A DNA stretch of 64,000 nucleotides from Artemia franciscana (taxonomy: Eukaryota > Arthropoda > Branchiopoda > Anostraca > Artemiidae), in contig NC_088866.1 of NCBI RefSeq assembly GCF_032884065.1, positions 60,587,978-60,651,977 of the forward strand. Direction: 5' to 3'. A model generated the notes under the pieces. It saw only the letters and a program-made list of their open reading frames with translations, made no database searches and was not told where the DNA came from. Position 1 is the stretch's first letter, and each line of letters begins with the position of its first letter. Below, piece after piece: positions 1,489 to 61,475 of this stretch. The position numbers were made by a program, and so were the translations under genes.

Positions 1489-1561
1489 ATATTCACAGGT
1501 GGGTACAATAGCGCGTAACTAATATGGCGCGTAACGACTTACGCGCGCGGGGGGGCTTGGG

Positions 1562-3082: not shown

Positions 3083-3276
3083 CGATTAGCAATCACCATC
3101 AACAAAGCTCAAGGGCAATCATTAGAATCATGAGGTATAGATCTGAATACGGATTGTTTTCCCATGGACCATTATATGTTGCATGTTCAAGAGTCGGTAA
3201 ACCTGAAAATCTATTTATATGCACAGACAATGGGACAGCAAAGAATGTTGTATATTCGCAAGTTTTACGTAGTTAA
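3083..3276 (+). pseudogene. Helitron helicase C-terminal remnant (copy 2)
   Basis: This nearly exact repeat of the remnant at 1101-1294 carries the same TGA and the same one-base deletion. Its only readable parts are the [10 protein letters not shown] segment and, in another frame, the [11 protein letters not shown] terminus. Confidence 0.85.
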
Positions 3277-3277
3277 A

Positions 3278-3451
<174 letters not shown>

Positions 3452-3609
3452 ATATTCACAGGTGGGACATAGGGACACAACTACAATGGCGCGTAACTAA
3501 TATGGCGCGTAACGACTTACGCGCGCGGGGGGGCTTGGGGGGGGGGGGGCGCGAAGCGCCCCCACCAACTAGGTGTTGGGGTGGCGCGAAGCGCCACTCC
3601 AACAGCTAG

Positions 3610-4440
3610 TATATATATATATTGAAGAACAATAACTGCTTATTTTTCTCGAAAACAGCTCCATATTTTTTCGGGAAAATTGGTATCATGGGAAAGTCTT
3701 GCATAAAAAAACGACTTAGACAGGTCAGAAGTCTGGCAAAATTCGTTAAGAGGCTTAATTTTTGAAAAATTAGCTTCAATGATCAAATATTGTTGAACAG
3801 AACCTGTATAAAAAGATATTAAATTGCGGAAAGAGCAAAAAACAAGTAATTGCAAAAATATTTGTCTAAATGATGACAAGGGATTGCAACAATTCAAAAA
3901 CCTTAAAAAATAAAACCAAAAGTTTGAAGCCTAGTAGAAATCGCTGTTAGAAATTGGACTTTCTTAATAATCAAATATATTTGAAAAGAGACAGTATGAA
4001 AAGACATTAAAAAGACATTAAAGACCAAAAAACTGGTAATTGCAAAAATAAAGTTATTATATAAACTTCAAAAGTATTTAAGGTTCCAGAGCAGTAAACT
4101 TAATGTTCTAATTCAAACAAGAAACATGCCTGACAATCTTAAAATTAGTTTGCTTTTTTGCTAGATAAAATCCACTCGCTACGTGATTAAGCTTAGATGT
4201 TTGAACACAACCAGTTACATAATGTCAGTAAGAAGGCCCAAAAAACAAGAAATTGCAATTATTACAAATGACGATTCGATATTTGACTAGGGATTACAAC
4301 AATTCTAAAACATTAAAAAAAGAAAACCAAAATTTTGAAGCTTAGTAGAAATCTATTCAGGATCGTGTCAGCTAGAAGTCAAGCTAAGAATTGGCCAGGC
4401 ATCATTCAGGAAACTATCTCAAATTTGGCGCAGCCAGAAG
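3610..4440. repeat. Degenerate direct repeats, no gene
   Basis: After a short (AT)n at 3610-3622, blocks around 3740-3945 and 4150-4350 share strings such as AATTGCAAAAATA, GGGATTGCAACAATTC and TTTGAAGCCTAGTAGAAATC, with a shorter related piece near 3960-4040. These are old, diverged direct repeats. I see no coding potential. Confidence 0.5.

Positions 4441-23618: not shown

Positions 23619-23651
<33 letters not shown>
23619..23651. repeat. (AT)n at the left Helitron junction
   Basis: About 30 bp of AT followed by TTG, abutting the Helitron 3' end. Copy B has one uninterrupted tract of about 20 bp at 61129-61148, the empty site. The exact junction is uncertain by a few bases. Confidence 0.8.
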
Positions 23652-23653
<2 letters not shown>

Positions 23654-23956
23654 AGTTGGTGGGGCGCTTCGCGCCCCCCCAAGCCCCCCCCGCGCGCGTA
23701 AGTCGTTACGCGCCATATTAGTTACGCGCCATATTAGTTACGCGCCATTGTAGTTGTGTCCCTGTGTCCCACCTGTGAATTTAGATAGATTTATATATGT
23801 GTTTCAAACTACGTAAAAATTGCGAATATACAACATTCTTGGCTTTCCCATTGTCTGTCCATATACAAAGCCGTATGTACTAATAATGACGTCATATGCA
23901 AACGCTCTTTTTACAAACAAACAAACATGCATACACACAACTCGTTTTTATATAGA
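23652..23956 (-). mobile_element. Mini-Helitron forming the 3' end of the large Helitron
   Basis: On the minus strand a second 5' end, TCTATATAAAAACGAGTTG, appears near 23956 and is followed by ATGACGTCATT. A third short copy of the helicase terminus ([12 protein letters not shown]), AATTCACAGGTGGGACACAGG, repeats of GGCGCGTAACTAATAT and the hairpin end follow. This is a complete Helitron layout in about 305 bp. The start is ambiguous within the (GATA)n at 23954-23974. Confidence 0.65.
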
Positions 23957-23976
23957 TAGATAGATAGATAGATACA

Positions 23977-24484
23977 ATACAAATTAACTACGTAAAACTT
24001 GTGAATATACAACAGTCTTCGCTGTCCCATTGTCTGTGCGTATAAATAGATTGTCAGGTTTACCGACCCTCAAAGATGCAACATATAATTGTACATTGGT
24101 AAAGCAATCTGTATTAAGATCTATACCGCATTTTTCTAGCGATTGCCCTTGAGCTTTGTTGATGGTGGTTGCAAATGCTAATCGAATTGGGAATTGCAAT
24201 CTTTTAAATTGAAAAAGCAGATCCGTTGGAATCATGGGAATGCGGGGAATAAGAACAGCCTCACCCTCATAAGGCCCTGTCAAGATTGTGGCATCTATTA
24301 GGTTTTCCATTGTTTTTTTTTTACGGCAAGTCGCGTGCCATTGCAAAGCTTTGGTGGGTTGATATTTCTTAAAAGTATTATTGGTACGCCTATTTTTAAT
24401 TGTAGCAGGTGTGGTGGACACCCTGAAGGATCTATGGAATTTAAAAATTCAGATGGATAATTAACCGCTTCATTTGGTTCCGAA
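23977..24484 (-). pseudogene. Duplicated helicase C-terminal tail
   Basis: Tandem copy (offset about 507 bp) of the last about 165 codons of the helicase at 24492-25838, beginning [17 protein letters not shown] and ending YSQVLRS. A longer T run near 24310-24320 breaks the frame after [14 protein letters not shown] has become NVQLYVASLR and CSENW is CTDNG-like (RTDNGT). It follows the helicase stop codon, so it would not be translated as part of it. Differences of several percent show the duplication is not recent. Confidence 0.85.
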
Positions 24485-24491
24485 ATACAAA

Positions 24492-25838
24492 TTAACTGCG
24501 TAAAACTTGCGAATATACAACATTCTTCGCTGTCCAATTCTCGCTGCATATAAATAGATTGTCAGGTTTACCGACCCTCGAACATGCAACGTACAATTGT
24601 CCATGGGAAAAACAATCAGTATTAAGATCAATACCACATTTTTCTAATGATTGACCTTGAGCTTTGTTAATGGTGATTGCAAATGCTAATCGAATTGGGA
24701 ATTGCAATCTTTTAAATTGAAAAGGCAGATCTGTTGGAATCATGGGAATGCGAGGAATAAGAACAGCCTCACCCTCAAAAGGCCCTGTCAGGATTGTGGC
24801 CTCTATTAGGTTTTCCATTGTTTTTTTTACGGCAAGTCGAGTGCCATTGCAAAGCTTTGGTGGGTTTATATTTCTTAAAAGTATTATTGGTACGCCTATT
24901 TTTAGTTGTAGCACGTGTGGTGGAAACCCTGAAAGATCTATGGAATTTAAAAATTCAGATGGATAATTAACCGCTTCATTTGGTTCCAAAACTGTGTCGA
25001 CTGACTTGTAAAGGACTGCCTGGTCTTGAATCTTGGTCAAAACAATATTGTTGATTTCGTGGACGTCTATATTTTTGGGTGCGAGAATCGCTCTTTCACT
25101 TAGCCATTTATTATTTTTATAATTTTTTAGAATATTCGGAAATACTTTTTCAATCAATTCATTTTTGGACGTCACTAAATTACAGAAATCAGCAGGTAGT
25201 TGTATACGTCCTGAAATTGAGTCTACTGGGAGCTTTCCGTTTCCCATTGCCAGCAATTGATCTGAAAATGTTTGACCAGAGTCATCGTTTTGCAATCGGA
25301 CACGCATATTTGTAGTTAATTTTAATGTTTTTACGTGTGCCCATAAATTAGAATTTTTCAGGCAAGCATTCATTTCGTCTGCAGGAGTTGATCTAGGTAT
25401 TATAGGTAATGTTTGCCTGAAATCTCCCGCAAGCAATATTAAGGTGCTGCCAAAGGGTTTCGACTTCCCTCGCAAATCTTTCAAGCATTGATCCAGAGCC
25501 TCGAGCGATTTTTTGTGTGCCATTGTGCACTCATCCCAAATAATAAGTTTGCATTGCTGCAATACTTTACCCATCCCAGATGATTTGGAAATATTGCACG
25601 TGGGAGTTTCTGTAGAATGCAAGTTCAGAGGCAATTTCAAAGCGGAATGAGCAGTTCTTCCACCAGGCAGCAATGTTGCGGCTATTCCGGACGACGCAAT
25701 TGCCAACGCTTTATCATTTTTAGATCGAATTGATGCCAGAATCAGTTTTTTCACAAACGTTTTACCAGTACCTCCTGGCGCATCCAAAAAGAAAATTTCT
25801 CCAACGTTGTTATCGACACAATGCATTATCGTATCATA
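24492..25838 (-). CDS. Helitron Pif1-type helicase domain
   Basis: SF1 helicase half of the Rep-helicase that unwinds DNA during rolling-circle transposition. From the ATG at 25826: Walker [18 protein letters not shown] at residues about 14-30, a [15 protein letters not shown] segment, Walker [28 protein letters not shown], a region with ILAPKN, then [16 protein letters not shown] and [14 protein letters not shown], and a stop after VVYSQVLRS. The true protein runs in from the linker: the codons for YDTI directly before this ATG continue the frame that ends QKDI at 26778, and a LINE lies between. The domain itself is open and has all the expected motifs. Confidence 0.92.
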
Positions 25839-26778
25839 AAGAAAGTATCAAGGGAGAAAAGGGGAGAAGGTAGTATCTATTGCTTGTCCTATGTGCGGAT
25901 CTCAGGATGAAAGTTTAATACATTTTGTGTGTGAATGTGTCGAATTGAATGATTGGAGGCGTGAGATGTATGGAAAAGAAAAATTGAATGAGATATGGAT
26001 GGTAGATAGAATGAATGATACAAATTTCCTGAGTATCAAAAGGATAGCAAGGTTTGTCAGGATTGCAGCGGTGCATCGGGAGCGTTTTCTTTGAATAGTT
26101 TTAATTTAATGTAGTGAATTTGTTGTTTGTGTATTATGTAATTTTCCTATGGCCCACGGGCTTTTTTTTTCTGGAATAATTTATTATTAATTATTATTAT
26201 AAGACACAATATGAATTATTATTATAAGTCACAAAGACAGCGAGTCTTAATAATTTGAGGCCTAGATCTGGAGAATTTCCTAAGCAAATCCTTTCTTCTC
26301 TCCACGTTCCCGGAATAGAATTGCACTAAATTTCCTCCGTTGAATCCTAGTTGAGAGTCAACTTTTTCCCATCAAGATTGGAAGTGCTCTCTCTTTCCCG
26401 TTATATGATATAAAACACAAGAATTTCTTTTTCTCTTCTTTTTTTTCTCTCTCTTTCAATCGGGAAAGCGGAAGATTTATGGGACGACCAATTAAGCGTG
26501 GGGGTCCTTGGCAATATTTTTAGAATAGGTTGTTAAGAGTGAAAATACTATTAATAAAGGGGAAAAGTCCGTTAATCCTTAGTAAGAAGAAACGTTTTTA
26601 TGATTAACTTATTTTGTCGTTAGTTTAGATATTTTCGCGCTGTATTCTGTTTCTGTGCGTGCTTGTAATTTGTACTGTTGTTTAATGTTCTTGCTTGTGT
26701 GTTATTTATTTATATTGTTGTGTGTATATGGCCCTTAGGCTTTTGAAATACACTTATCTATCTATCTATCTATCTATC
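25839..26778 (+). mobile_element. 5'-truncated LINE inserted in the Helitron coding sequence
   Basis: The insertion separates codons for QKDI and YDTI of the Helitron protein, on the strand opposite to it. TAAA flanks both sides (after GTATCA on the left, before TGTCTTTTTG on the right), a likely 4-bp target duplication; removing the insert restores the frame. Plus-strand content is a LINE C-terminus, untranslated sequence and a (TATC)n tail at about 26754-26778. Two similar 3' ends occur (CCTATGGCCCACGGGCTTTT near 26148 with a following (ATT)n, and TATGGCCCTTAGGCTTTTGA near 26728), so this may be two nested or tandem LINE ends. Confidence 0.8.
25840..26093 (+). pseudogene. LINE ORF2 C-terminal zinc-finger fragment
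   Basis: Open frame reading VVSIACPMCGSQDESLIHF, then VCECVELNDWRREMYG, ending VHRERFL and a stop. The pattern C-x2-C, then H and C (CPMCG...LIHFVCEC) is the zinc-binding motif near the end of ORF2 in several non-LTR clades. The reverse transcriptase is missing through 5' truncation. I cannot assign the clade. Confidence 0.7.
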
Positions 26779-27361
26779 TAAATGTCTTTTTGTTCCGACG
26801 TTAACTTGGAAATGTTATTTTGTACATACGACAATAGATCACTCGTACTGTAACTTTGTTCACGATCCAATTCTACACATGTCGAAACAGCAGCGATACG
26901 GTTAGGTGAAGGCATTCCCAAATCCTGAAGAGGTTTGTTTGCCATACTTATGCACAAGTCTTCTATAACAACTAAAGTGTAGTTATAAATTTCTGATGTA
27001 AAATCAAAAGTCATGTCTGACGTCTCTAACTGTTTTCGATGAAGTATATCTTCGGACATTTTTGACTTATATTTTTCCCATAAATCTGTAGGAGCTGATG
27101 GAGAGCAAGTTGTTAAAATGATGCCAAACAATGCACGAATTTGACTTGGGGTTGACGTTTCGCACGCGTCATTGATGCAGTTATCCCAGTGTTGGTCATT
27201 CTCCAATAAATTCAGAGCTTGGCATGCACTACGGTAAGTGTCATGTATAGTACCATTTAAAGTCCTCAAATACTCAAAGGATGTCGGACCGGGTACATTC
27301 ACCAAAAGCAGGCGTAGAAAGAAGCATTCATGTTGATTGGGGTGAACGGTGTAGAGTCTTC
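26778..27361 (-). CDS. Helitron Rep-helicase linker region
   Basis: Middle part of the Helitron protein. From 27305 the frame reads VNVPGPTSFEYLRTLNG, SACQALNLLENDQHWD, PSQIRALFGIILTTCSPS and ends LTSEQKDI at the LINE insertion. The VNVPGPTSF..LR.LNG and LLxDDxxW-like segments are the usual sequence between Rep and helicase in animal Helitrons. The same frame continues upstream (higher coordinates) as LYTVHPNQHECFFLRLLL, so the methionine at 27305 is not a true start. A stop at 27411-27413 and a frameshift near 27520 separate it from Rep. Confidence 0.85.
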
Positions 27362-30259
27362 CTATCGTGGTATCTTTGAAGATGGTAGGTTGGCCGTCGA
27401 CTGACTTACCCTATTTTCGACGTTCAAATACTTTATTTTTAGTATTCCACGTGTAATACGAAGGCACTTCAGTATACAGCAGTTTTTTTGCAAAAGAATC
27501 ATTTTTGCAAAGCAAAAGAAAACTGTTAATGTTGTATCCGGTGGATTCAGGACTCTTTGTTGCACGTTGGTTTCCGTGAAATAAACACGTTGACCATTCT
27601 GTAAATGTACCGCTAAGTGAACAACAGCTGGACTACGTTCATGTATCGGAAATGAAAGAATTCGCCAAACAGCTTCATTACTGCTTATGTATCTTCCAGC
27701 CTGATATTCTACGATATCATCGAAATCTTTGATTTCGGACTGCAAGCCAAAAACTGCCATGTCACTGCCTTTGTTGACGTATTTACATATGTATTTGATT
27801 GCCTTTACGGAGTTACAGTATTCAACGTTTATGTGTGCATTAAATGTTTTTGATAATAAAGGGGAATATGGAACAACCCACTGGTTATCTACTTCGATGG
27901 TGGTACCGTTACGCTTCTTTATTATTGCTGTTTTACCGCCATCTTCAGTAGATCTTCTTCTATATTGTGGGTAACCATCATTGCCAGTAATTGTTTTGGG
28001 TACTAAAAGTCGAGGATATTGCTTTGTGCACCTTCCTTTGGCCATGCATGGTGAATTTTCGTTCAGTGCACCGCAAGGTCCATGTATCATATTTTTTACA
28101 ATAATATCATGTAACCCCTTATCGACATTTTTATCAGGTATTTCAGCGGAAATCACATCATCAATTTCGTTTGAAGTAATTTTTTTATGTAGCCAGATTA
28201 GTATATGTGCGTGTGGCAAACCTCGTTTTTGCCATTCCACTGAGTACATCCAGCATCGCACTGACCCAAACACTTCATGTTTTACAAGGTAGTTTATCAG
28301 TGATTTCAACTTTTGCCGGAAGACACGTGCCGTAATGTCATGCCTATGAACCGCCGATTGTCCTTGAAGTAAAAGCTGCAGTATCTCGTCCCAAGATTGA
28401 TTACATGTAAATGTAATAAATAAATCTGGACGACCATAGAGACGAACATACGCAATAGCATCTTGAGCATATTCATGCATATGACGGGGACTGCCAGCAT
28501 TTGACGAAGGTAAAATTGTTAATCTTCCAACGTTTGTGGTATTACCGTCATTTATAACTGCATCTCGCAAATGAATGTATTGTTCAGAGCGGAGCTTGGT
28601 CTGATTCAGGCGGATATATAGCAAACGTTCTGATTCAATTTTAGCATACATATCCACGACAAATTGGTGAAACAATTCACGGCATTTTAAAATATAATTT
28701 TCTTCATCCTGCCGAATCATTAGTCTATAGGAATAATAATGCATTGCACTGCATTTCTTATTCATTTCTTTGTTAGTGGCTGGATTCATCAATTTAATAT
28801 TAAAGTGATAGCCGTCGGCTCCATCCCAAAAAATAATAGGATATTGTAGGGCATCGTAGCATCGATGAGTTTCAGCAATTCTTAACAACTGAGCGTTTCG
28901 CTTATGTAGAATAATATCTCGAGGTAAAAACTGATCACCGACCATAACGATTGCCACTTCGTCGATAGTCGGAGCATTGTATCTACGCACATGTTGGCCA
29001 GGAGGCGTTTTGTCAGCGGAAATAACAATTTTATGAGTATCAGTAGGCATCAAATCGATGGCTGTTTTGAACAGACGCACTAAATTATTATTTTCGTGGA
29101 AAAGATGTTGCAATTGGGAAACGATTGTCCTTTCAACGTTGGGAGAAATTTCGTAACGTGCATTCAATTCAGAATTTCTATCACTGATGAAGTACAATTG
29201 TAAAAATTTATGATTCTCGCCTGAGAATGGTAGAAGGGACCCTGCTTTATGATAAATTTGCCCCTTTACTTTGAAAGTAGACATAAATTGATCTGGATTT
29301 TCGATTTGGGCTCCAAACGACGTCATTTGGAAACATGAGTTGTATTGTCTGATTTTTGACAAAAAACGCTTAGATTCTGACGTAGTTCCAGTAAGGAAAG
29401 TCTTCAATGGCTCTGGTGGTGCAGCCAATAGAGGAAGTTTAACTTTTCCTGAGGCGCAACACATTCCCATTGTTTCACCATTGAATTTCAAGGCCTTGCA
29501 ATAGGGACAAATTTTAGACATTGTCCCGATTTGAACACATCTACTCAAGCTATAATCATCGACTGGGTTGTACCTGAATGCCAGGCAATAACTTTCAGAT
29601 TGCTCTGATTCCTCGGCACGCTTTCTTTTCTTACTTTCTCTATCAGCAGCAAGCCTGTTTCCCTGCTGGTCTTTTGATTCCTCGGCACGCCTTCTTTTTT
29701 CACTTTCTCTTTTAGCAGCAAGTCTGCTTCTGCGTTGCTCTGGTAGTTCCTCGGCATGCTTTCTGTTCTTTCTTTCTCTATCAGCAGCAAGCCTGTTTCC
29801 CTGCTGGTCTTTTGATTCCTCGGCACGCCTTCTTTTTTCACTTTCTCTTTTAGCAGCAAGTCTGCTTCTGCGTTGCTCTGGTAGTTCCTCGGCATGCTTT
29901 CTGTTCTTTCTTTCTCTATCAGCCTCAAGCCTGTTTCCCTGCTGGTCTTTTGATTCCTCGGCACGCCTTCTTTTTTCACTTTCTCTTTTAGCAGCAAGTC
30001 TGCTTCTGCGTTGCTCTGGTAGTTCCTCGGCATGCTTTCTGTTCTTTCTTTCTCTATCAGCCTCAAGCCTGTTTCCCTGCTGGTCTTTTGATTCCTCGGC
30101 ATGCCTTCTTTTTTCACTTTCTCTTTTAGCAGCAAGTCTGCTTTCGCGTTGCTCTGGTAGTTCCTCGGCACGCTTTCTTTTCTGACTTTCTCTATCAGCA
30201 GCAAGTTTTTTGGCATACACTCTTTGAGCATCTTCATCAGTCATTGTAAACTTAAACAT
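27362..30259 (-). CDS. Helitron Rep (HUH, two-tyrosine) with N-terminal 23-residue repeats
   Basis: Nicking and joining protein of rolling-circle transposition. The ATG at 30259 lies 160 bp from the element's 5' end. Residues about 8-214 are nine charged 23-residue repeats. A cysteine pair segment ICPYCKALKFNG follows near 245, then the body common to animal Helitron proteins (LPRDIILHKR, DALQYPIIFWDGADGYHF, LFITFTCNQSWDEI). The HUH motif is GLPHAHILIW with His683 and His685. The catalytic tyrosines are in IKYICKYVNKG, Tyr823 and Tyr827. The correct frame is lost near 27520 (after TTLTVFF), so the last about 50 residues of this frame are not genuine Rep sequence. The active-site residues are all present. 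Confidence 0.92.
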   Translation of the reverse strand: MFKFTMTDEDAQRVYAKKLAADRESQKRKRAEELPEQRESRLAAKRESEKRRHAEESKDQQGNRLEADRERKNRKHAEELPEQRRSRLAAKRESEKRRRAEESKDQQGNRLEADRERKNRKHAEELPEQRRSRLAAKRESEKRRRAEESKDQQGNRLAADRERKNRKHAEELPEQRRSRLAAKRESEKRRRAEESKDQQGNRLAADRESKKRKRAEESEQSESYCLAFRYNPVDDYSLSRCVQIGTMSKICPYCKALKFNGETMGMCCASGKVKLPLLAAPPEPLKTFLTGTTSESKRFLSKIRQYNSCFQMTSFGAQIENPDQFMSTFKVKGQIYHKAGSLLPFSGENHKFLQLYFISDRNSELNARYEISPNVERTIVSQLQHLFHENNNLVRLFKTAIDLMPTDTHKIVISADKTPPGQHVRRYNAPTIDEVAIVMVGDQFLPRDIILHKRNAQLLRIAETHRCYDALQYPIIFWDGADGYHFNIKLMNPATNKEMNKKCSAMHYYSYRLMIRQDEENYILKCRELFHQFVVDMYAKIESERLLYIRLNQTKLRSEQYIHLRDAVINDGNTTNVGRLTILPSSNAGSPRHMHEYAQDAIAYVRLYGRPDLFITFTCNQSWDEILQLLLQGQSAVHRHDITARVFRQKLKSLINYLVKHEVFGSVRCWMYSVEWQKRGLPHAHILIWLHKKITSNEIDDVISAEIPDKNVDKGLHDIIVKNMIHGPCGALNENSPCMAKGRCTKQYPRLLVPKTITGNDGYPQYRRRSTEDGGKTAIIKKRNGTTIEVDNQWVVPYSPLLSKTFNAHINVEYCNSVKAIKYICKYVNKGSDMAVFGLQSEIKDFDDIVEYQAGRYISSNEAVWRILSFPIHERSPAVVHLAVHLQNGQRVYFTETNVQQRVLNPPDTTLTVFFCFAKMILLQKNCCILKCLRITRGILKIKYLNVENRVSQSTANLPSSKIPR
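29617..30238 (-). repeat. 23-residue (69-bp) repeats in Rep, 138-bp higher-order unit
   Basis: Nine repeats of 23 codons alternate between an AEELPEQR..RLAAKRE type and an AEESKDQQ..RL.ADRE type, making a 138-bp two-repeat unit (for example GATTCCTCGGCACGCC at 29676 and 29814). The 23-residue length, the central RL and the R/K-rich end resemble the STPR repeat of silkworm FMBP-1, a DNA-binding repeat. Confidence 0.8.
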
Positions 30260-30418
30260 TAATAGAATTCTACGCGAACATATGTCTTATATAACTTGAA
30301 TGACGTCACCTTCAAGTCATAAATGATGGCAACTAATTTCATGACGTCAGCCGAAACATGACGTCACCTGATCCACAGATCCACAGATCCACAGACAACT
30401 TATTTTTATATATATAGA
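30260..30418 (-). promoter_or_regulatory. Helitron 5' terminal region with TGACGTCA palindromes
   Basis: Between the 5' TC and the Rep start codon there are three TGACGTCA or near matches (about 30302, 30342 and 30360) and a short GGATCTGTGGATC repeat. TGACGTCA is the CRE/ATF consensus. It or a one-base variant also lies close to the 5' ends of the other Helitrons in the window. A promoter role is an inference. Confidence 0.45.
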
Positions 30419-30435
30419 TATATATATATCTTTAA

Positions 30436-35324: not shown

Positions 35325-35327
<3 letters not shown>

Positions 35328-37169
35328 ATATATATAAAAATAAGTTGTCTGTGGATGGATGGATGGATGTGTCAGGTGACGTCACCTGAAAAAACTGGAT
35401 CAGGTGACGTCAAAACTGAAAAAACTAAAAAAAGGCAAAAACTACAAAAAAAACTAAAAACTAATAAAAAAAATAAAAAAGCTAAAAAACTAAAAAAACT
35501 ATAAAGGTAAAAACCAATAAAAAACTAAAAAAAAAAAACTGAAAAAACTAAAAAAAGACAAAAACTACAAAAAAAACTAAAAACTAATAAAAAAAGTAAA
35601 AAAGCTAAAAAACTAAAAAAACTAAAAAAAAACTAAAAAAAGGTAAAAAACTAAAAAAAAATAAAAAATAAAAAAAAACTAAAAAAAAGGAAAAAACTGA
35701 AAAATAAGCTAAAATAAAGGTAAAAACCAATAAAAAACTAAAAAAAAAAAGGAAAAAACTAATAAATGACGACACTCAAAGAGAAAGCGACCAGGACAAA
35801 AGGAATGTTCGATTAGCAATCAACAAAGCACAGGGACACAGGGAGTATAAATGACGACCAGGACATAAGTAAAAAAAAAAACTATCTATATATATAAAAA
35901 TAAGTTGTCAAACTAAAAAAAGGCAAAAACTACAAAAAAAACTAAAAACTAATAAAAAAGCTAAAAAACTAAAAAAACTAAAAAAAAGGCAAAAACTACA
36001 AAAAAAACTAAAAACTAATAAAAAAAAATAAAAAAGCTAAGAAACTAAAAAAACTAAAAAAACTAAAAAAAGGTAAAAAACTAAAAAAACTAAAAACTAA
36101 AAAAAACTAAAAAAAAGGAAAAAACTGAAAAATAAGCTAAAATAAAGGTAAAAACCAATAAAAAACTAAAAAAAAAACTGAAAAAACTAAAAAAAGGCAA
36201 AAACTACAAAAAAACTAAAAACTAATAAAAAAAGTAAAAAAGCTAAAAAACTAAAAAAACTAAAAAAACTAAAAAAACTAAAAAAAGGTAAAAAACTAAA
36301 AAAAATAAAAAATAAAAAAAAACTAAGAAAAAAGGAAAACACTGAAAAATAAGCTAACATAAAGGTAAAAACCAATAAAAACTAAAAAGAAAAAAAGGAA
36401 AAAACTAAAAAAAATTTTCATCTAAAAAACTAAAAAAAACTAAAAAAGGTAAAAACTAAAAGAACTAAAAAAGAAAAAAATAAATGACGACACTCAAAGA
36501 GAAAGCGACCAGGACAAAAGGAATGTTCGATTAGCAATCAACAAAGCACCGGGACATAGGGAGCATAAATGACGACCAGGACATAAGTAAAAAAAAAATT
36601 AACAAAACTAAAAAGAAGGTAAAAACTACAAAAAAACTAAAAAGAAAAAAAAACTAAAAACTAATAAAAAAACTAAAAAATCAAAAAATCTAAATAAACT
36701 AAAAAAGAAAAAAAAAGGAAAAAAATAAAGGAGAAAAACAAAACTAAAAAACGAATGTATATACAGACCGGTACACCGGGATACAAATGACGACCGGGAC
36801 ACAGGGAATATAAATGACGACCGGGACACAGGGACACAACTACAACGGGGACACCGGGGGAAACAGGGGGATATAAATGACGACCGGGACAAAAAAACTA
36901 AAAAGAAAAAAAAACTAAAAACTAATAAAAAAACTAAAAAATCTAAAAATCTAAATAAGCTAAAAAAGAAAAAAAAAGGAAAAAAATAAAGGAGAAAAAC
37001 AAAACTAAAAAACGAATGTATATACAGACCGGGACACCGGGATACAAATGACGACCGGGACACAGGGAATATAAATGACGACCGGGACACAGGGACACAA
37101 CTACAACGGGGACACCGGAGGAAACAGGGGGATGTAAATGACGACCGGGACACCGGGACAGGGAATGGT

Positions 37170-37363
37170 CGATTAGCAATCACCATCAACAAAGCTCAAG
37201 GGCAATCATTAGAATCATGAGGTATAGATCTGAATACAGATTGTTTTCCCATGGACCATTATATGTTGCATGTTCAAGAGTCGGTAAACCTGACAATCTA
37301 TTTATATGCAAAGACAATGGGACAGCAAAGAATGTTGTATATTCGCAAGTTTTACGTAGTTAA
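37170..37363 (+). pseudogene. Helitron helicase C-terminal remnant (copy 3)
   Basis: Same remnant as at 1101 and 3083, with the same TGA before GIDLN and the same one-base loss. Minor differences include GACAATC rather than GAAAATC. Confidence 0.85.
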
Positions 37364-37464
37364 AACCATATATATATATATCTATCTATATTCACAGGTG
37401 GGACATAGGGACACAACTACAATGGCGCGTAACTATTATGGCGCGTAACGACTTACGCGCGCGG

Positions 37465-37538
37465 GGGGGCTTGGGGGGGCGCGAAGCGCCCCCACCAACT
37501 AGGTGTTGGGGTGGCGCGAAGCGCCACCCCAACAGCTA

Positions 37539-37539
<1 letters not shown>
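37465..37539 (+). other. Helitron 3' terminus with two hairpins (copy 3)
   Basis: First hairpin around GCGAAGC followed by CACCAACTAG, then the perfect 13-bp GTTGGGGTGGCGC stem (37505-37533) and CTAG at 37536-37539, followed by T and (AT)n. Confidence 0.85.
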
Positions 37540-37634: not shown

Positions 37635-39308
37635 TATCAAGGAGGCACACTCGTGCCTCTATAAAGAGGCGACACACGACAATGTTAAGCGATCTTCGGT
37701 TCCAGTGGTCGCAGACGGATGGGGAGGGATGCATTTCGTAGCCCGAGCTCCAACTAAGAAACCTGCAAAATTTCATCCCCCTCCAACTTTTTCTTCATGG
37801 GGAATCTGGCCGAAAATTTCGACCTGTCAACCCAAGCCCCTCTTTAACGTTGTCCGATCGGGCTGAAATTCACAAGTTAAGGTCCCCTAGGGCCCAGGAG
37901 CTTATCCGCGAAATTTCAGCTTGATCCGATAACTCCTTCCCTGTTTTCCAGAAACCACGCATAGCCACTTAAAATTCATTTACTTTTTTTTTCTAGACGC
38001 CTACAGGTCACATCCGACATCGGATCTGGGTGTACGAAGACTCATTCGATGCGGAATTCTCCGAGTAAGTGCCCATGAAAGTTTCGTAGGAAAATCTTAA
38101 CCCCCCGAAAGTTTCGAATTAATATGAAAATAAATTAAACCTGTACAAAAGAGTCTTTAAAAGCGGGGGGTTTGCCTCTCCTAATAGTCTTCTTATAGTC
38201 CTAATAGTCTAATAGTCCCATGTTAATTTTTGAAATTCTTAAAAGTTACGAATATCAACATTCAAGTACATCAAAATAATCAGCTCGGCACGGCGAGAAT
38301 AACTGCAAGCATCATAAAAATCCAGCTCCATTCCAGATGTCCGAAATAAGTGTGATATAAATGTGCTTTAAGTATATATTTTATAGCCTTTAAGTGCTCA
38401 TTGCCAATTTTTAGGCGAATTTTCAAATGTTTTGAAGAAGTTTAAGTTTTTCTCGATTTAATGAAACGTGGATATTTACTTATTTTATATAAATAGTTGC
38501 TAAATAAGATAAATAATATATAATTTACTATAATTACCTAAAGATGTTTCCTATATGAGAAGGCATTTTTAGAATAAATTCTTTATTATAGGCTTTTGGA
38601 CGTAGCGATCAAAATAAAAGTGTATACTTTTGTTAACACCCGGACTGCTTATCATTTGAGAGATAACAGAATATTAGCTTCTTATGAGCAAAAGAAACAT
38701 TTCGGTCATTCTATCTATTTTTTTTTCTATTTTATACAATGATTTAAAAGTGATATACAATGATTTAAAATTCCTCTACGAGGAGTACAGGAATTATTAA
38801 ATTACATCCACCATGGATTGTAGAAAAACGTACAGAAATAATATGAAAAAAACTTCGTTTTCTTAAAGAGTTAAAGAGGCTGCGTCCCAAAGTCGAACCT
38901 TAAAACGTACAGGAATTAGAAGAGGCAGTTGGGGGGCTGCCGCCCCCCAAACCCCCAGCTTTTAAAGACTCTTTTGTACAGGTTTTTTGTTTTTTTGCTA
39001 ACCCCCCGCTCTTGGCTTCGGAAAGGCCCTCTTTTAATTAACAAAAAATTGAAATGAATGAATAATGGAATAACTTCGAAAAATGTTAAACACAAGAGGA
39101 CAGGAGAACCATTGCGCCGAAACTAGTAATTAGTAACAATGAAGTCCCCCCACAAAAAAAAACTGTACAAAAGAGTCTTTAAAAGCTGGGGGTTTGGGGG
39201 GCGGCAGCCCCCCAACTGCCTCTTCTAATTCCTGTACGTTTTAAGGTTCGACTTTGGGACGCAGCCTCTTTAACTCTTTAAGAAAACGAAGTTTTTTTCA
39301 TATTATTT
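37635..39308. mobile_element. Unclassified 1.67-kb insertion in the dispersed repeat
   Basis: Comparison with 14462-14790 shows the repeat interrupted between CTACTGTTT and GGTAAATGACG. The left part (about 37660-38110) is more GC-rich than its surroundings and contains GAGGCAC-ACTC-GTGCCTC, a short hairpin, near 37641. The right part is a foldback element. A third partial copy of its arm lies at about 38139-38175. No coding sequence is recognised. Confidence 0.5.
38836..39308. mobile_element. Foldback (MITE-like) element with 146-bp inverted repeats
   Basis: Arms 38836-38981 and 39163-39308 are nearly perfect reverse complements (outer end AAATAATATGAAAAAAACTT, centre GGCAGTTGGGGGGCTGCC, inner end TTTTGTACAG). 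The spacer is about 181 bp. No transposase is present. I could not see a clear target-site duplication. Confidence 0.75.
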
Positions 39309-46500: not shown

Positions 46501-49500
46501 CTACTTTCCCCTTCGATAATTCCGTATCTATTTGATAAATTACCGAAGTTTTGCAACAGGAAAGTGAAATATATCACAATTTTTGAGTGCTGAACAGCTG
46601 GAAGTATAATTGGAAGTTATTTTATCTCCTTTGGAGCTATTAACAAAAAGAAAAATGACAGAACTAAATAAAAAACAGTAATTACATTACTAAAACTATC
46701 GAAAACCACCCAACGGTATTCCGCAGAGAACAAAACTGCAAATAATGAGCACATTAATCTTTTTGGCCATAATTAATGAAAAATAGGATGTCCAAAAAAG
46801 GCTGGTGCTCTTACTAACCGTGATAAAAATATTCGAAATTTATATTTTGTAGTGTTATTTCAAGTGTAGATAATTTAAAGAGTTACCCCAAAAAATTAAA
46901 AGAGTAGGGCGTATATTCAAAGAGATCATAATTTTTGGTTGCAGAATGCTTCGAGACCATATCTAGGGTTTCCTAAGGAAGAGAAGTAATCGTAAAAGTT
47001 ATGGAACTGAAGGATTAAAAAATATTATTCTTCAGTTTTAATTATAATTTTATAACCAACGAGAAGAAAATATGATAAGACAAATTTTAGCTTGAAAAGA
47101 ATCAAAAGTAATTAATCACGGGTTTAGGGTGTGTTATAAATTTACACAACTTTATAAATTGAACCAAAACTTGCGATTATCATATTTGGGCTGTAAATTT
47201 CCGAGTAAGGGAAAAGAAGAGAAGTAATAAATGAACAAAAGGAAATATATTCGTAGAAAACAAAATAATAAAACTTACTAAATTTTTTAAAGCTGTAATC
47301 CGAAATTTTTTGTTTGGTTCTGTTTTATGGAATCTATATCCTTACAAGACACATTATGCACTGCGTTTCGTAAAGCCAAATGTTCACGAACGGACCTAAG
47401 ATTGTTTTTCGGACTCGAATGTCTTATCGTCTTTATTTCGTCTTTATTTCCATTTTAAAAAACAGGTATACGCAATTAAATAGAAAAGTTAGATGTCCAA
47501 AGGGCCAGATATGTTTACTTTTCTATGAAACTGTTCTAGGCTTTCTATTAATCTTGCAGAGGGGAGAAAAATTTCTTCTCATAGTTTGTTAATAACTGTA
47601 GGAAAAAATCTCTTTTTGTACCCTTTGTTTTTATGCAAATAAATCTAAAACCTCAGACAGTCTACAGTTATCTTATCATAGATAGTTTTAAACCATAACA
47701 AATATGCTTTTTTGCACAGGCTGTCAATTTGGGTATTAACACTTGCTGTACTTTATTGCAGTCTTTTTCCCTGTTTACTTATTTTACTTTCCTACTTACT
47801 TATTTTTCTTCTTTACTTGCTCGTTTCATTGCTTATGATTAATAATTTAATTCTTAAGTTAAATCATTTTCATTAGTTAATTACCTGCTTTCAGTGATTT
47901 CCAGCTTTGACTTATAATAATTTTAATTTGAACAAACTATACGGTTAGAACTTGGTTATAGCTCCAAAATTCCCATTTTCCTTATTATTTTTTTTAATTA
48001 TTGCTATTATTGCATTTCGTGAACAAGGCCATAACAATCTTTTGATTTCTTTTCTTTAAAATATTTTTTAGGGTAAATTTTAACGAAAGTTGTTTTATTT
48101 GGAACTTCTTTCTTACACGTGAAAGGGGATTATCTAATGCTGGAAAATAAACAGAATCTTTCAGTTTTTTTTAATAATGCAAAAACACTTAATGATTGGA
48201 CTCTTCAAGCACGTCTCACAGAAAGCTCAGCGACCTGTTTCCCAGGGGAACACAAAAACAATTTTCACAAAATTACGCAGAAAAGAAACGAACAACCCCA
48301 CAAAACTCAATTACTTATCAAATACTAATTTTTTTTAATACGCGAAATTGAAAAAGGAGATAGGAAAAAAAAAACGACAAAATAATCTCTAATAGACTGG
48401 ACCGGCAAAAAATACAACGAGATCCAATGAGCTTATCTAAATACTCGTTTAGTGATCATCTGAAGACCCCTAGATGGTGACAGTTCTTGAAGCTCATGGA
48501 CGATGTCAATTATATCTTTTTTTCATTTGGTAAGTCGAAGATTTGGCAACCATAAGTGTTTTTTAAAAATTAGGAAAATCTAGGAAATCATTTTTTAATA
48601 AAAAAACTTTCAAATGAACTTATGCCACTATTTTGATAGTGGCAGATAAAAAGCTTGAAAAAGAAAGGTGGTGATATTTCACCGAAAAAAAGCTAAGAAC
48701 ACAGGCATCAAGCAACTTAAGAAGGTATAGCTGTCTTTTAGAGGTTCTCTTCGTGAATCCACAGATTGGTGCTTTTACAATTTTTACGGATAAGAACCTT
48801 TACTACATTTAACTAATTTAATCCTGATTATTTGTTTACACGGTTTAACATGTCAACACTGATGAAAATGTGGTTCTCTCCTAAAAACTTCATAATTTTT
48901 CAACAACAAAAAGCAAAATCTAAAAAAAAATCCTGATTTTCATTTGTAAGTAATCCTAAAACGTTTTTTTAAATGTTTAATTTTAAAATACTGTAATTAA
49001 AATAGTTTTTTTTCAATGTCTAAAATTCTTATTTATAAAAAGTGTTTTACTTTAATATCCTTGATCCTTTAAAATATAAAAGCACTGAATTCCAAACCTC
49101 ACTGCATGAACATAGATGACCAAGATATTGCTCAACAATATGGATCTTTGGAACTAGACATAAATCTGGATTACTAAGAGTTAGATGATTGGCAGTAAAA
49201 TAGGTGTAAGCTTGAAATTATTCATAATAATTGTGCTTAAAATTTCCTGAATAAATTCATCCAGTATTTATGTTAGATTTTTGGCTGTTTCGGACTTCTG
49301 CCAATTCCTGCAGAAGCATAGGTAACAATACTTCATCGGACCTTGTCTAACTAGCGATGTTTCATTAAGAAACATCGTAATTCATTGCAATTCGTTCGGC
49401 CCTTTTTTAGAAGAAAAAAGGATGCTGTGAAACGTTCTTAAAGAAAATCATTCGGTTTTTCTTTCCCAAATACCACCAAATGCACTAAAATTTTTCGTAT

Positions 49501-50796
49501 TCTCTTACATCTTCGATAGCTTAAAAAAAAAAAAAAAACAAGATCAAACAACAGCAGATTTCCGAAGGTCATCAGCCACCCTCCCTTATAACTTGCATAC
49601 ATATCTGCGTGTTACTGTTATATCAGTCTTGTCCTGTTGAATTAGATACCATAAAAACAATGATACTTTTTTTTATTACCACGTAAACTTCCATGGATTA
49701 TTGCCTTAAGGCCTTGCAACAACGCCCATCAGTGATCAATACTGTCATGAAAACAAATGGAAAAAAAGTTTATAAAAACAAATGCTCAATTACTACATCT
49801 AAACAAAAATACCAACACACAAAAATATTTATGAGTGATTTTGTGACTTATCTCTGATTAAGAATAACTTACGAAGGTATTTTGGGTTCGTACTAGTGAG
49901 CGTGCGAGGGCTTTATTGATTCCCAAGGACAAGTAAACCTTTAAAGGAAAGCTGTGTCTTCCTAAACTGTTTGGCGCCATATGAGGTTTAGCTTGTTTTT
50001 GCTTATTTTTTTACCAGCGCATCTTATTTTTGAGTTTGGCACCCACAACTACCAAATCCTGTACTACTAGTGATCCTGTACTAGTGAGCGTGCGAGGGCA
50101 TTATTGATTCCTAAGGACAAGTAAACCTTTCAAGGAAAGTTATGCCTCCCTAAACTTTTTGGCACCATATGAGTTCAAGCTTATAATTGCTGATATTTTT
50201 TATAAGCGCATCTTATTTTTGAATTTTGGCACCCCCAACTATCAAATCCTGCACTACTACGTAAAGAGGACTTCTAAAGTGAAATGTCTGATTCATATAA
50301 TTTTCATACATTTATATGGTTTTGCAAGTTACCACTTAACCAAGCCAAAGAGTCAGATTTCATTTTGACTTACCTCCTTAATTTAACCGTAAACCAAATT
50401 GATTTATAATTTACTTGTTAAAAAAAAAATATTAAAAAAAAATACTTGTCACTTTTTGCGACATCCTATGATTGTTATCCATAGGCATTAGAAATACCAC
50501 TTGTGAAGGTATTTTTATATTATTAGTGCATTGTCTTGACTTCAGAAGAACGATGTTTCTCCCAAATGATATTTTTTCAGCCCTATCATAAAGAACACAC
50601 GACGAATGTTGTTGTTTTTTTCCAGTCCCATAATAAAGAACATACGACTAAAGAAAAGGTTTCAGTTGCACAACACACAAAAAAACATATTTTAGATTTT
50701 TGAATATACATTCTAATTTGTTGCTCCACTCCCCTTAAATATTTTTGTTGAACAAAAGGGATTTATGCGTGCTTTTAAATTAGAAGGGTATATTCT
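46501..50796. other. Intergenic region 3' of the astacin exon (copy B)
   Basis: Same content as 8269-12564. The hairpin at about 48622-48645 is unchanged. The one near 49360 has lost one base pair (ACATCGTAATT instead of ACATCGCAATT). Confidence 0.5.
49889..50270 (+). repeat. Two-unit tandem repeat of about 190 bp (copy B)
   Basis: Counterpart of 11655-12035, with both units present, confirming that the tandem predates the larger duplication. Confidence 0.8.
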
Positions 50797-52593
50797 TTAA
50801 TAATAAATAGGGTATAAAATAATTACAAAACCTGTGGCATTCCGTATGAATTCGTTTTTGTAGTTTATATGAACTTCTTGACCACGAAAAATATGATTAA
50901 AGTATTCTACATTGCACTCCTTTTGCTGCACTCCAAATAAGTCTCTTATTAGAAGAAAAGAATTGTTACAGTATGGATCTGATGAAGTTACGTCGAAGTA
51001 CCTAGTGGCAGCACGAATATAAGCAGCTCTTGGAAATTTAAACCAGTTGTAACATTCAAAAAGAGAGTATGAGCGTACAATTATTGAGCCATCAGCACTG
51101 TTTACAAAAGGGCAGTAACCACTTGCAAAGGATTTGGGAAGACAAGAAGGATCATGCTTAAAGGAAACATCAAATGCTATATAGCCTTGTTGGGCTCTTG
51201 GCATTTTCGACTGGAACTCTATCACTATATCAGGCTTTCCAACGAATTTAGAGCCTAGCTTAACCATATTCCCACATTTCATCGGCTCATCTAATTCGTA
51301 CAAGCTGGCGCTTCGTATTCCAAAAAATTCAAATCTACATTGCTGAGAAATATGCTTTAAATAAAATACTTTGATGGTGATAACAGCAACTTGGCATTTA
51401 GGAGGTTTAATCCACCAAATGCAAATAAGATTTCCACTATTTCTTGCTGAGGCATAGGATCCGGGTGTTTCAATATTCCCTCCGCACGACGGTGGTGGAT
51501 AAGCTGGTAGTGAATCTGAATTCAAATATTCACATTTCCCTCCTGAAGTTCCGAAGGGGCAAATACAAAAACAATTTGGCCCTAGGTATCCGTGATTTAC
51601 GCAGTTATTTTTTGTTTGGCACTTCTTTTCCCAAGATTCAATGCAACCATATGCCCGATTAATTACTAGCTTATCATAGTGACTTACACTATGCAAGTCA
51701 GACAAAAGGTACTGAAGACTTGGGTCACGAGGTAGCATTGTAGGTAAATTATTTTTGATATCCAGGGAAAATGCATACCACTGGTAATGCATGTTAGATA
51801 AATAATTATAAGGAACACTATAATCGAATAGTGCATCTTTTTTAAAGTCCTTTTCATTTTGTCTTGGATAATTCCTTTTAATAACTATTAGATATTGATC
51901 TCTGTCTCTTCTCTGATGCTCATGACTCAAGCCAAGAGCATGCCCGAGCTCGTGAGCTGCCAGGATATCGGTCCAACATCCATTGCCCAAGCTTAGCTCC
52001 TGCAGCCACGCATGGTGGAGTCTTCCAATGAAAGAATGGCATGAGCCAGGTTGATTAGTAATAAAAAGCCTTGCTTCTCCGAGGAAAGGCAGCCGTGCTC
52101 CAGGTACCCATGGAACAGTACGGATGCAAGTATCTTCTTCCCATTGTTTGAATCCTCTTGAAATAAAAGACGTATCGACGTGACTAAAGCTCCGTGGATC
52201 AATTTGATAAGGAACTATAACTAGACCATTCTTTTGTTTGGGCCAATGAAAATATTTAGATATCCTTGCCACTCTGTCTCTTAAATCAAAATTCCTTAGC
52301 ATCTCCCAAGTTTCTTTTGTGTACAAAATGTCTCCTATTACACGATAGAGTTGGGCAGGCACATTTTTATACAATAAGTTTGAAGATTTGGTACCGTTTA
52401 TAGTTTCTAAAAATCGATGCAAAAACCGTGAATCACCATAATTGGATAAATTTTTAACCTCAAAGTCTTCATTTTTCTTTAGTTTGTGTGATTTTTTGGT
52501 TTCTTTCAAATCTACTTTGCCTTCAGAAGGGATTATAGACACACTGTCCACGCTCAGTGAGGTGAAAGACTCAGTATGACGCATAGTTGAGAC
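50797..52593 (-). CDS. Astacin-family zinc metalloprotease, 3'-terminal exon (copy B)
   Basis: Open frame of 595 codons from an ATG at 52584. HELGHALGLSHEHQRRDRD lies at residues 211-229 (zinc His211, His215, His221, catalytic Glu212), the Met-turn SNMHY at 263-267, EGF-like cysteines at about 322-351, and CUB-like regions at about 367-472 and 477-595. It differs from copy A at about 20 residues, none in the zinc motif. The ATG is probably not the real start: no signal peptide follows, copy A has ATA there, and TTTTATAG/GTCTCAAC just upstream looks like a splice acceptor. An upstream exon on the minus strand is expected. Likely functional, secreted, substrate unknown. Confidence 0.85.
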   Translation of the reverse strand, partial: VSTMRHTESFTSLSVDSVSIIPSEGKVDLKETKKSHKLKKNEDFEVKNLSNYGDSRFLHRFLETINGTKSSNLLYKNVPAQLYRVIGDILYTKETWEMLRNFDLRDRVARISKYFHWPKQKNGLVIVPYQIDPRSFSHVDTSFISRGFKQWEEDTCIRTVPWVPGARLPFLGEARLFITNQPGSCHSFIGRLHHAWLQELSLGNGCWTDILAAHELGHALGLSHEHQRRDRDQYLIVIKRNYPRQNEKDFKKDALFDYSVPYNYLSNMHYQWYAFSLDIKNNLPTMLPRDPSLQYLLSDLHSVSHYDKLVINRAYGCIESWEKKCQTKNNCVNHGYLGPNCFCICPFGTSGGKCEYLNSDSLPAYPPPSCGGNIETPGSYASARNSGNLICIWWIKPPKCQVAVITIKVFYLKHISQQCRFEFFGIRSASLYELDEPMKCGNMVKLGSKFVGKPDIVIEFQSKMPRAQQGYIAFDVSFKHDPSCLPKSFASGYCPFVNSADGSIIVRSYSLFECYNWFKFPRAAYIRAATRYFDVTSSDPYCNNSFLLIRDLFGVQQKECNVEYFNHIFRGQEVHINYKNEFIRNATGFVIILYPIYY

Positions 52594-52655
52594 CTATAAA
52601 ATGAATTGAAACCAATATTTTAATTATTAAAACCTATATATAAAACAATGAAAAC

Positions 52656-52723
<68 letters not shown>

Positions 52724-54439
52724 TAATTTAGGCATGAATTTTACTTAAACAGGAATATAGGGAGGGGGGGGGGGGGTGGAAATACGCATTGAATAAAAAA
52801 AATGATTAAATCCTGTCCCCAAATTGAGTTAATTTTTGTGTATTAGGTTCCTTGAATGCTATCTCAAGACCATGAGGTCCTCGGGCAATGAAAAAGATAA
52901 TTTCTAGATTCTACAAAGGCCAATTTTACCCTAGCTTTTCAGACTTATTGTCAGAACGAACATATAAATAGGAATATTTTCATCCATTTTTGCATTACAT
53001 TTCCCTTCAATGGATAATCGGGTTGTCATATCGAAAGTCAGATGAAAAATTAGATTTTGACTGACAATCTGTCAATCAGATGATGGTTTTAGTCTTAAAA
53101 TCGAGACTCTATCTTCTAAGTTAGTTGATCGACTTTAGGCCTTCTGACATTTTGTTTGTTTGTTGTTATTCTCCTTCGAGTAAGCAGAAAAAATATAGAA
53201 CATGGAATTTCATATAGAAGCATGGGCACCCATAAGGGGGGAGAAATAAAGTCAAACTATCTTTAAAACGTAAAACTACCATAGATCACTGGCAGTAAAT
53301 AAATGGAACTCAAAACAAACAGAGATTAGGATAAATAGCCAATTCAAACTCAAAACTAGCAAAAACTAACATTATTAGGGCTGACAACCCTCATACCTTC
53401 TCAAGACCAGAACATAATTTAGGCTTTACCGAAAAAAAATGACCGTGGATTGTCAGTTTAATATAAATATACTGATATTTATTCCTTAAAGTTTTATTTC
53501 TTTTATTAATTTAATTTAAAAAAAGTGGAAACATTTAAAACGTACTTTGTAATGACGTTTTTCGTAAAAATTTGATTTTATTTTAAGAATTATTTTTGTT
53601 AAATTACTAAAGCTTTTTAAATACGTTAATTTCCTTTAAAATAAGCCATTAAACAGCTTTCTAAGATGTTTCAGTGTCCAGCTAGCAGCGGAGAAGAAGA
53701 AAACGGAAATAAAAAAAAAGATACTGTCGATGTGGAATATTGTGGCTGCAGCCACTTTCTTTTTTTCAAGCCGATAGATCTTCCTCGTTATTAAAGCCAA
53801 GGGACGGTAAGTTTATTATGCAGGGGTTTCTGGCAAAGTGGTTCCAATAGTGTTTTTCTTGTTTTCATCTGATATTAATTTTAGGAGCGTCCGAAAGCTT
53901 GTTTATGTTATAGGCTACTACTATTGTCTGCAGCACCTCATTGCTGACAACTTCAGTAAGAGCCGAGCACCAGCACTTAAATTTATGGTTGTTTAATGTG
54001 TGTGTTGTTGTATACAATGTATTGTGTAGTGTTTTTAAATTCACCAAGCAGCGTGCTATTCAAGTAGTTACTTTTCTTCACTACCGCATGAATAACACCC
54101 TGTCTCTCCCCCCTCCTCAATAAAAACACTGTAGCTACGCCTCTGAGTATACACTTAGTGCCTTCTGGCTAGTTCAAAATCCCCCACAACTTACTCTTAA
54201 GGTCTAACTTAATGTTATGAGTTGTTCTTGAGATGTTGCTTTGTCACCTTTTCGAAAGTCCACCTGCTCACAGTTTACTTTGATTTATTCAACGTCCGCC
54301 TAAATATATCTTATATTTGATTACTGATGACATTGTTATATGCTCTTTGGATTATTGGTTACAAAATGGCTATCTCGCAATTTCGATTGAATATGTTTGG
54401 GGAAAAGAGGATATCAGAGAGGCGTGGCTATTTTCCTGC
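52594..54439. other. (AT)n and intergenic sequence (copy B)
   Basis: A single (AT)n tract at about 52657-52724 takes the place of the two tracts and insert seen in copy A. Then AT-rich sequence with no gene, including the 131-bp deletion near 53240 that removes the start of the dispersed repeat. Confidence 0.6.
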
Positions 54440-60534: not shown

Positions 60535-61475
60535 CTAAGGTTTCATAATAGGCATTCCCCGACAGTCTTCAGAAGTTGCACTGGCTTTTACCATTTTAAG
60601 TCTCTTCCACAAATGAGTATTATCCACCACTGATGGTCCAACCCTCTTGAAGCCACTCTGAGATTGCAGACATGCACCTAAAGATTCAGATGACACAACA
60701 TTTGAAAACGGAAGTGAAAGAAGATACCTTCTGAAGGTTCTTAAATCTCAGTGACCCAAAAGGCGTTTTCATTGACACAATTTTCCGCCAGAAAAGCAGA
60801 GGACTTTCTAGTGGCTTAAACGGAATTTCGAGTGTACTGGTGTTCCTCAACCCACTCTCTATTCTCTTCTTGTCCCAGTCTGGACTGCTGTAAAAGTGAA
60901 AGAACGGTAGCAGCGTAGATGGTTCCATGTTTGCAGCCTTACATCGTTCAAGCATGACCAAGTGCTGAAATATAGGTGCTAAAAAATCGAAGCTAATCTG
61001 CACTTGATTAACAAACTCCTGGTAAAACTCCCTTGCTGGTCTGAGAACAATTTGGACATTAGCGTCCTCGTATGTGAGGTTCCTTTCTTCGACATTATAT
61101 CGAAGAATTGTAGCTGCCTTAAAGCCAATATATATATATATATATATCTTTAATTGGCAAGTATCCAATTTCAGTGTTTACATCCAAAGACATTATATCA
61201 GATCATTTGATATGATTGGATAACATGAAAGAAGAAGCGAAAGTACGAAGCAACTCTTCCGTTTCCAATTTGAGTTTGAACATAAGAGGCTCTTCGGTCT
61301 GGAAGGTCTTATTGTATTCTTCTTCTTGTATCTGGAATATGGACCGGTCCGAAAATATATCAAAATAATCCGGAAAAAAGGGGCTTTCGAACTTCCAGGT
61401 TTCCGAAATTTTGGGGAATTCAGGAAAAGATGAGGGGGGCTGTACCCCCCGGTCACCCGTTCCAAATTTATGCAT
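60535..61475 (-). pseudogene. hAT-like transposase relic, uninterrupted (copy B)
   Basis: Here the two parts split by the Helitron in copy A are joined: FPKISETWKFESPFFPDYFD, ELLRTFASSFMLSNHI, a TGA, IMSLDVNTEIGYLPIKD, a short (AT)n reading as Tyr-Ile repeats, GFKAATILRYNVEERNLTY, LRPAREFYQEF, SFDFLAPIFQHLVM, LLFWRKIVSMKTPFGS, LRFKNLQK and, in another frame, LLSLPFSNVVSSESL to a TAG at 60535. The (AT)n tract itself shifts the frame. An old dead transposase or transposase-derived gene; no BED finger or terminal repeats were found. Confidence 0.5.
61129..61148. other. Empty Helitron insertion site (copy B)
   Basis: AAAGCCA, (AT) of about 20 bp, then CTTTAATTGGCAAG. In copy A the same flanks are separated by the 6.8-kb Helitron. 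Confidence 0.9.

Follow-up and report, generated by a model that had tools for sequence, protein, structure and literature searches.

Results

A Helitron with an N-terminal repeat array

The window, by which we mean the whole stretch of 64,000 nucleotides analysed here from the 1.27-Gb genome of Artemia franciscana, carries a Helitron copy on its minus strand. The Rep protein of this copy begins with tandem 23-residue repeats that resemble the STPR domain of the silkworm transcription factor FMBP-1. The features are listed below, with the slash in A/T, A/TC, CTAG/T and T/T marking a point of insertion here and throughout.

23650..30418, minus strand: Helitron copy of about 6.77 kb in an (AT)n tract, with an empty paralogous site, a 5' A/TC end, and Rep and PIF1 domains
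30379..30418, minus strand: 5' terminus, TCTATATATATAAAAATAAGTTGTCTGTGG..., with ATATATATA, an exact match to the FMBP-1 motif ATNTWTNTA (motif as given in PMC4821344)
29617..30238, minus strand: predicted STPR array at the N-terminus of the Helitron Rep protein, one degenerate and eight full 23-residue repeats of two alternating types
27362..30244, minus strand: 960-aa open frame with the STPR array, a cysteine-bearing stretch and the Rep/HUH domain
28196..28738, minus strand: Helitron_like_N (Rep) domain, aa 503-683 (Pfam PF14214, 4.8e-57)
24492..25847, minus strand: PIF1-like helicase part in a separate open frame (Pfam PIF1, 5.9e-63)
23650..23700, minus strand: 3' terminal region with the GC-rich hairpin GGGGCGCGAAGCGCCCC
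23620..23649, no strand: (AT)15 flank at the element's 3' end
30419..30429, no strand: short alternating AT flank at the element's 5' end
61128..61147, no strand: empty site, (AT)10, in the duplicated copy of the locus

The 960-aa open frame, whose translation starts MTDEDAQRVYAKKLAADRES, joins the array to the cysteine-bearing stretch, which is putatively zinc-finger-like by its likeness to what the Helraiser literature describes, and to a Rep domain homologous to the solved Helraiser transposase (6.8e-140). Together with the Helitron_like_N match, this homology upholds the identity that the original prediction had given to the protein. Rep (Helitron_like_N) and the PIF1 helicase, the two constituents of a RepHel transposase, are both present in the window copy in two separate frames. 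As the helicase lies in another open frame downstream of Rep, this copy is broken; it has a frame change and nested insertions. Its 3' boundary can be placed only to within a few bases, and its 3' end is non-canonical, being without the second hairpin and the terminal CTAG found at other copies.

Positions 25848-26780 hold one or more insertions within the Helitron, one of which has a (TATC)n tail and, by eye, looks like a non-LTR retrotransposon 3' end. Within the same Helitron copy, the helicase 3' end is present as a 510-bp tandem duplication (23976-24485 and 24484-24991; 92%). Elsewhere in the window, an inverted repeat of 153 bp (38836-38988 and 39156-39308) is 99% complementary, with a spacing of 167 bp.

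When cut every 23 residues, the array consists of a degenerate leading repeat, EDAQRVYAKKLAADRESQKRKRA, eight full repeats and then a truncated one. Thus, of the nine repeats originally counted, eight are full, and the ninth is the degenerate leading unit. The repeats alternate between two types, EELPEQRxSRLAAKRESEKRRxA (type A) and EESKDQQGNRLxADRExKxRKxA (type B), and the spacing between units is always 23 residues. Tandem Repeats Finder reported a period of 138 bp (4.3 copies, 96% matches, score 1096) as well as the 69-bp half period, so that the unit length, the alternation and the DNA period were all recovered as predicted. Full units of the same type are 93-100% identical at the DNA level, and those of different types 70-77%.

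The repeats match the STPR family

The Pfam STPRs family (PF21107) has a curated cut-off of 27 bits. The whole 960-aa protein scored 49 bits against it (E 8.3e-13, five stretches), the first 219 aa scored 73.4 bits (E 2e-20), and the eight native repeats alone scored 52.6 bits. None of nine controls, in which the 23 columns were reordered identically in all repeats so that composition and period were kept, matched STPRs at E<=10. In the reverse direction, a profile made from eight arrays (the window and seven loci) was searched against 177635 PDB sequences, and two FMBP-1 sequences came out on top (E 0.002 and 0.31), followed by an unrelated sequence at 8.5. Alignment of the array profile with FMBP-1 by hhalign gave 90.7%, E 1.3e-6 (a one-against-one value) and 34% identity over 53 columns, with the register unshifted. 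The window sequence alone gave a weaker match to FMBP-1 (E 0.022 to 0.11).

FMBP-1 is described as rigid when bound to DNA, a form for which the Glu4-Arg9 salt-bridge pair is important (PMC4821344). In the corresponding columns, the commonest residues are the same: among 125 distinct Helitron repeats, 109 have E and 90 have R. The window's type B repeats carry Asp4 and Arg9. These comparisons support the view that the repeats are genuine members of the STPR family, in register with FMBP-1, and the resemblance originally proposed for the array has held up in both search directions. By analogy with STPR, the array is predicted to bind AT-rich duplex DNA in a helical form.

Copies, repeat number and constraint across the genome

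The 622-bp stretch coding for the array was found at no fewer than 40 near-full-length places in the genome at 96-100% identity, counting the one in the window; 35 of these are exactly 622 bp long. Two partial places came in addition, and of 1997 first-look candidates 40 were scored. Matches to the STPRs family were found at no fewer than 149 places, all over the cut-off (one only together with its neighbours), when 150 of 15825 first-look candidates were scored. No STPRs match was found in 14 control genomes, the genomes searched besides the host's own being prokaryotic, and two scans of viral contigs found no Helitron relatives there.

In 28 of the 30 best STPR loci, the protein part that follows the array is present on the same strand and no more than 900 bp away, the exceptions being loci L017 and L026. 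The Rep domain proper was seen in 15 of the 30, each locus spanning only 1.5 kb to either side. At least two scored repeats are present in 28 of the 30 (not in L017 and L037), and the best frame holds 3 to 9, degenerate end units counted. Over the window and the loci scanned, 95 of 120 gaps between neighbouring repeats are exactly 23 residues. The subfamilies differ in that the repeats run A-A-..-B, are all B, or have an 8-residue spacer, and the E..EQR..RL core is kept across loci whose following protein part is roughly 54-97% alike. In L017 (plus strand, frame 0), a 173-aa open frame holds STPR-like repeats of a different type (ENEEQRHTRLEDMRHRACERVK); Helitron sequence was not found within that locus, and its array is perhaps a host-type STPR sequence.

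The original prediction had named, as counting against it, the possibility that the repeats are found only in this copy, as a recent minisatellite expansion. The first half of this proposition is contradicted by the number of copies and by the Helitron sequence at 28 of the 30 loci. The second half survives in part: within the window's subfamily, the alternation of A and B does appear to be a recent, later minisatellite-type amplification of an older module, since its 138-bp units are 96% alike and other subfamilies are A-A-..-B or all B.

The STPR array was the route to every locus except one, and the loci are biased towards it. The exception came from a search with Rep only (150 of 7435 candidates scored) and was chosen for its 1663-aa open frame; the 390 bases read from it are in-frame STPR repeats throughout. 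In another locus, L043, the array and Rep lie within one open frame of 1602 aa. Open frames 1464-1688 aa long hold 37 of the 150 scored Rep matches (a further frame, of 2091 aa, was left out). Five length classes that are multiples of 23 aa apart (1548, 1571, 1594, 1640 and 1663) account for 22 of these 37, and 15 fall outside them. When distinct frame lengths were compared pairwise, the difference was a multiple of 23 in 17 of 120 pairs, with 5.2 expected. This fits the gain and loss of whole repeats, as judged from frame lengths, the repeats having been read in one member only.

A codon alignment was made from 14 of 21 anchored rows, six being left out for stops or frame breaks and L037 for having no array. 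Comparison between two groups gave a dN/dS of 0.75 in the last STPR repeats, as opposed to 0.41 in the core next to them; the within-group values were 0.76-0.90 for the repeats and 0.58-0.82 for the core, and decayed copies drive these values towards 1. The STPR part is under looser constraint than the core, which we count against a strict sequence requirement. The STPR-bearing clade is large and apparently recently active.

Insertion sites

The window contains two arms that are about 95-98% identical over their main blocks (8268-33324 and 46501-64000), which may reflect either a genuine duplication or the joining of two haplotypes one after the other. The second arm is without the Helitron. 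The empty arm reads AAAGCCA(AT)10CTTTAATTGG, and the filled arm reads AAAGCCA(AT)15, the element, a short alternating AT stretch and CTTTAATTGG. As the empty arm holds (AT)10, the tract exists without the insertion.

From the loci and the window, 53 5' and 36 3' junctions were picked by exact or near-exact terminal sequence, non-autonomous elements included; they are not fully independent, with distinct 60-bp flanks numbering 45/53 and 30/36, and pure (AT)n flanks are indistinguishable from one another. In 16 of the 53 (5') and 18 of the 36 (3'), the 20 bp at the junction were nearly pure alternating AT. On the 5' side, the background was 0.85% of 2231 A/T sites in one window arm and 9.0% of the A/T sites sampled over all loci plus the window, which contain such insertions. 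An FMBP-1 motif lay within 30 bp of the junction in 35 of the 53 (5') and 31 of the 36 (3'), compared with 171/3182 and 135/3182 host A/T sites (4-5%); 18 of the 53 5' flanks had none. When only flanks of at least 90% A+T were considered, alternating AT was present in 21/24 (5') and 19/22 (3') versus 21/65 and 21/66 for the host. Fisher p values ranged from 1e-5 to 2e-36, which is too small given the overlap of neighbouring background sites and the dependence among flanks. The enrichment of insertions in alternating (AT)n, together with the empty (AT)10 site in the window, confirms the insertion preference that had been proposed.

Of the 53 5' flanks, 40 end in A, 11 in T and 2 in G, and all 36 of the 3' flanks start with T. 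Across the loci, the ends are those of RepHel elements (5' TC, 3' CTRR, a 3' hairpin, and A/T insertion without target duplication), apart from the window copy's own 3' end; the junction sets had been selected for TC and for CTAG, and those letters are no independent test. Helentrons, or non-canonical Helitrons, insert at T/T and have another terminal structure. A Helentron identity was rejected, as the ends are mostly A/TC and CTAG/T.

Two regions of the window, 1-3622 and 35326-37539, hold non-autonomous elements that have the double-hairpin CTAG 3' end in common with the Helitron, as well as its 5' end in the same or a variant form. The former is a tandem pair, and the latter sits between (AT)n tracts. 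In six of the 53 5' flanks, the junction adjoins the 3' end of another element. Head-to-tail joints, with a CTAG 3' end directly against the TC 5' end of the next element, are seen in L039 (near 7950) and L048 (near 730), and they resemble the circle junctions reported for Helraiser.

Discussion

The Helitron array and the STPR domain of FMBP-1 (PF21107; PDB 5d23, 5d2q and 5d2s) have in common a 23-residue tandem unit, an E-x-x-E-Q-R-x-x-R-L core in the same register, and a basic character. STPR is described as a DNA-binding domain for a 9-bp AT-rich motif, and it acts together with a neighbouring basic region in the nuclear entry of FMBP-1 (PMC4821344). However, silkworm FMBP-1 is described as a 218-aa transcription factor with four repeats, whereas the Helitron array precedes a cysteine stretch, Rep and a helicase. 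The half-repeat M..YAA..RL of FMBP-1 is also replaced by R-E/D-S/N-x-K-R-K-R in the Helitron array. In the crystal, the FMBP-1 helices reportedly follow the major groove, with each repeat taking up about 4 bp; on that scale, an array of nine might span some 36 bp.

Helraiser (Helibat1; PDB 7lcc), a canonical RepHel element, is the closest comparison for the element as a whole, with a homologous Rep, A/TC and CTAG/T ends, a 3' hairpin, AT-rich targets and an N-terminal DNA-binding region. This bat element is reported to insert at A/T, with flanks that are AT-rich over about 20 bp, and to lose both ssDNA binding and ssDNA cleavage when the N-terminal 489 residues are removed; its authors credit the binding, tested on single strands, to a zinc-finger-like motif (PMC4778049). 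The Helraiser N-terminus differs in having its own repeats, with 20 of 33 residues identical at a 42-residue lag (PDB 7lcc). We rejected it as an STPR, as it fails the STPR profile, a PSSM (p 0.25 and 0.61; 0.007 for FMBP-1) and hhalign. Other DNA transposons are found in microsatellites: MuTAnT Mutator-like elements lie in (TA)n, but they are terminal-inverted-repeat elements with a mudrA-like transposase, and lepidopteran Helitron-like elements disrupt (GAAA)n, according to a title cited in the same article (PMC4486113).

On balance, we favour the reading that the STPR array is the DNA-binding N-terminal part of a RepHel transposase, which holds Rep on (AT)n targets and possibly on the element's own 5' end. 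The array would be placed along the groove of an alternating AT duplex, as in the FMBP-1 domain, and would thereby keep the Rep nuclease on (AT)n target tracts; it might also grip the TATATATATA-bearing 5' end of the element itself. Rep would then cut and join between A and T at the tract. For loci that were reached, with one exception, through the array, the data suggest that STPR causes the choice of (AT)n. This causal role is what we infer; Helraiser fails the STPR tests yet prefers AT-rich sites, which counts against it.

The main rival to this reading, which we regard as possible although somewhat unlikely, is that the array is a basic module for general tethering and nuclear localisation, and that the (AT)n preference comes from A/T cleavage by Rep combined with easy melting or cruciform formation, which would offer a single-stranded target. 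As (AT)n melts and forms cruciforms, it could alone attract a single-strand nuclease, and this counts against an STPR-driven choice. Helraiser, with its A/T insertion and AT-rich flanks but no recognisable STPR (PMC4778049), and the joint action of STPR and its basic neighbour region in the nuclear entry of FMBP-1 (PMC4821344) both speak for such a tether. The excess of alternating AT among very A+T-rich flanks speaks against it, although cruciform-prone (AT)n predicts that excess too. It is also conceivable, but unlikely, that the array recognises the AT-rich 5' end of the element (TCTATATATATAAAAATAAG) and not the target, with (AT)n flanks following as the protein also rests on genomic (AT)n. 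The exact FMBP-1 motif within the 5' end agrees with this; however, where the genome itself is AT-rich, finding the motif once in an AT-rich terminus is nothing unusual, and at the 3' ends that were read, the element carries GC-rich hairpins and is without such an internal tract.

Two further explanations would deny the array any specific binding. If the array were a minisatellite that had expanded in a permissive N-terminus and played no part in DNA binding, this would account for the near-identity of the 138-bp units, the variable repeat number and the repeats' dN/dS of 0.75-0.90. Such an origin is nevertheless very unlikely: most gaps are exactly 23 residues, the E..EQR..RL core persists across diverged loci, the STPR match is gone on permutation, and an open frame of 1663 aa carries the array. 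That the repeats form a charged helix or coiled coil of a generic kind, which scores through its composition, is hardly credible and largely refuted, for although the sequence is rich in E, K, R and A, the permuted controls do not score and the FMBP-1 match is in register.

If the array does hold Rep on its targets, its adjustable length could make it a ruler-like reader of alternating AT, in which the gain or loss of units retunes the length of (AT)n needed, steers insertions into microsatellites where they do the host no harm, and lets the clade reach a very high copy number. This extension is speculative, and we consider it rather improbable.

Helitrons, STPR domains and microsatellite-targeting transposons are each known separately; what appears to be new here is a canonical RepHel Helitron with an STPR array as its N-terminal region. 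A literature search, of a kind that misses most subscription papers, found no paper on Helitrons and STPR together, and wider searches gave nothing among the matches listed. Predicted arthropod Helitron proteins in public databases have similar repeats, and the feature may therefore be common though unnamed. For Helraiser, the N-terminus is needed for DNA binding; in the available text of PMC4778049, its fold is described only as a zinc-finger-like motif, and the AT-rich preference is left unexplained. An STPR array at that same N-terminal place would provide a solved DNA-binding template, making target choice by such a module directly testable. An STPR domain would also sit in the enzyme of a mobile element, which raises the question of the direction in which the domain has moved between host genes and transposons.
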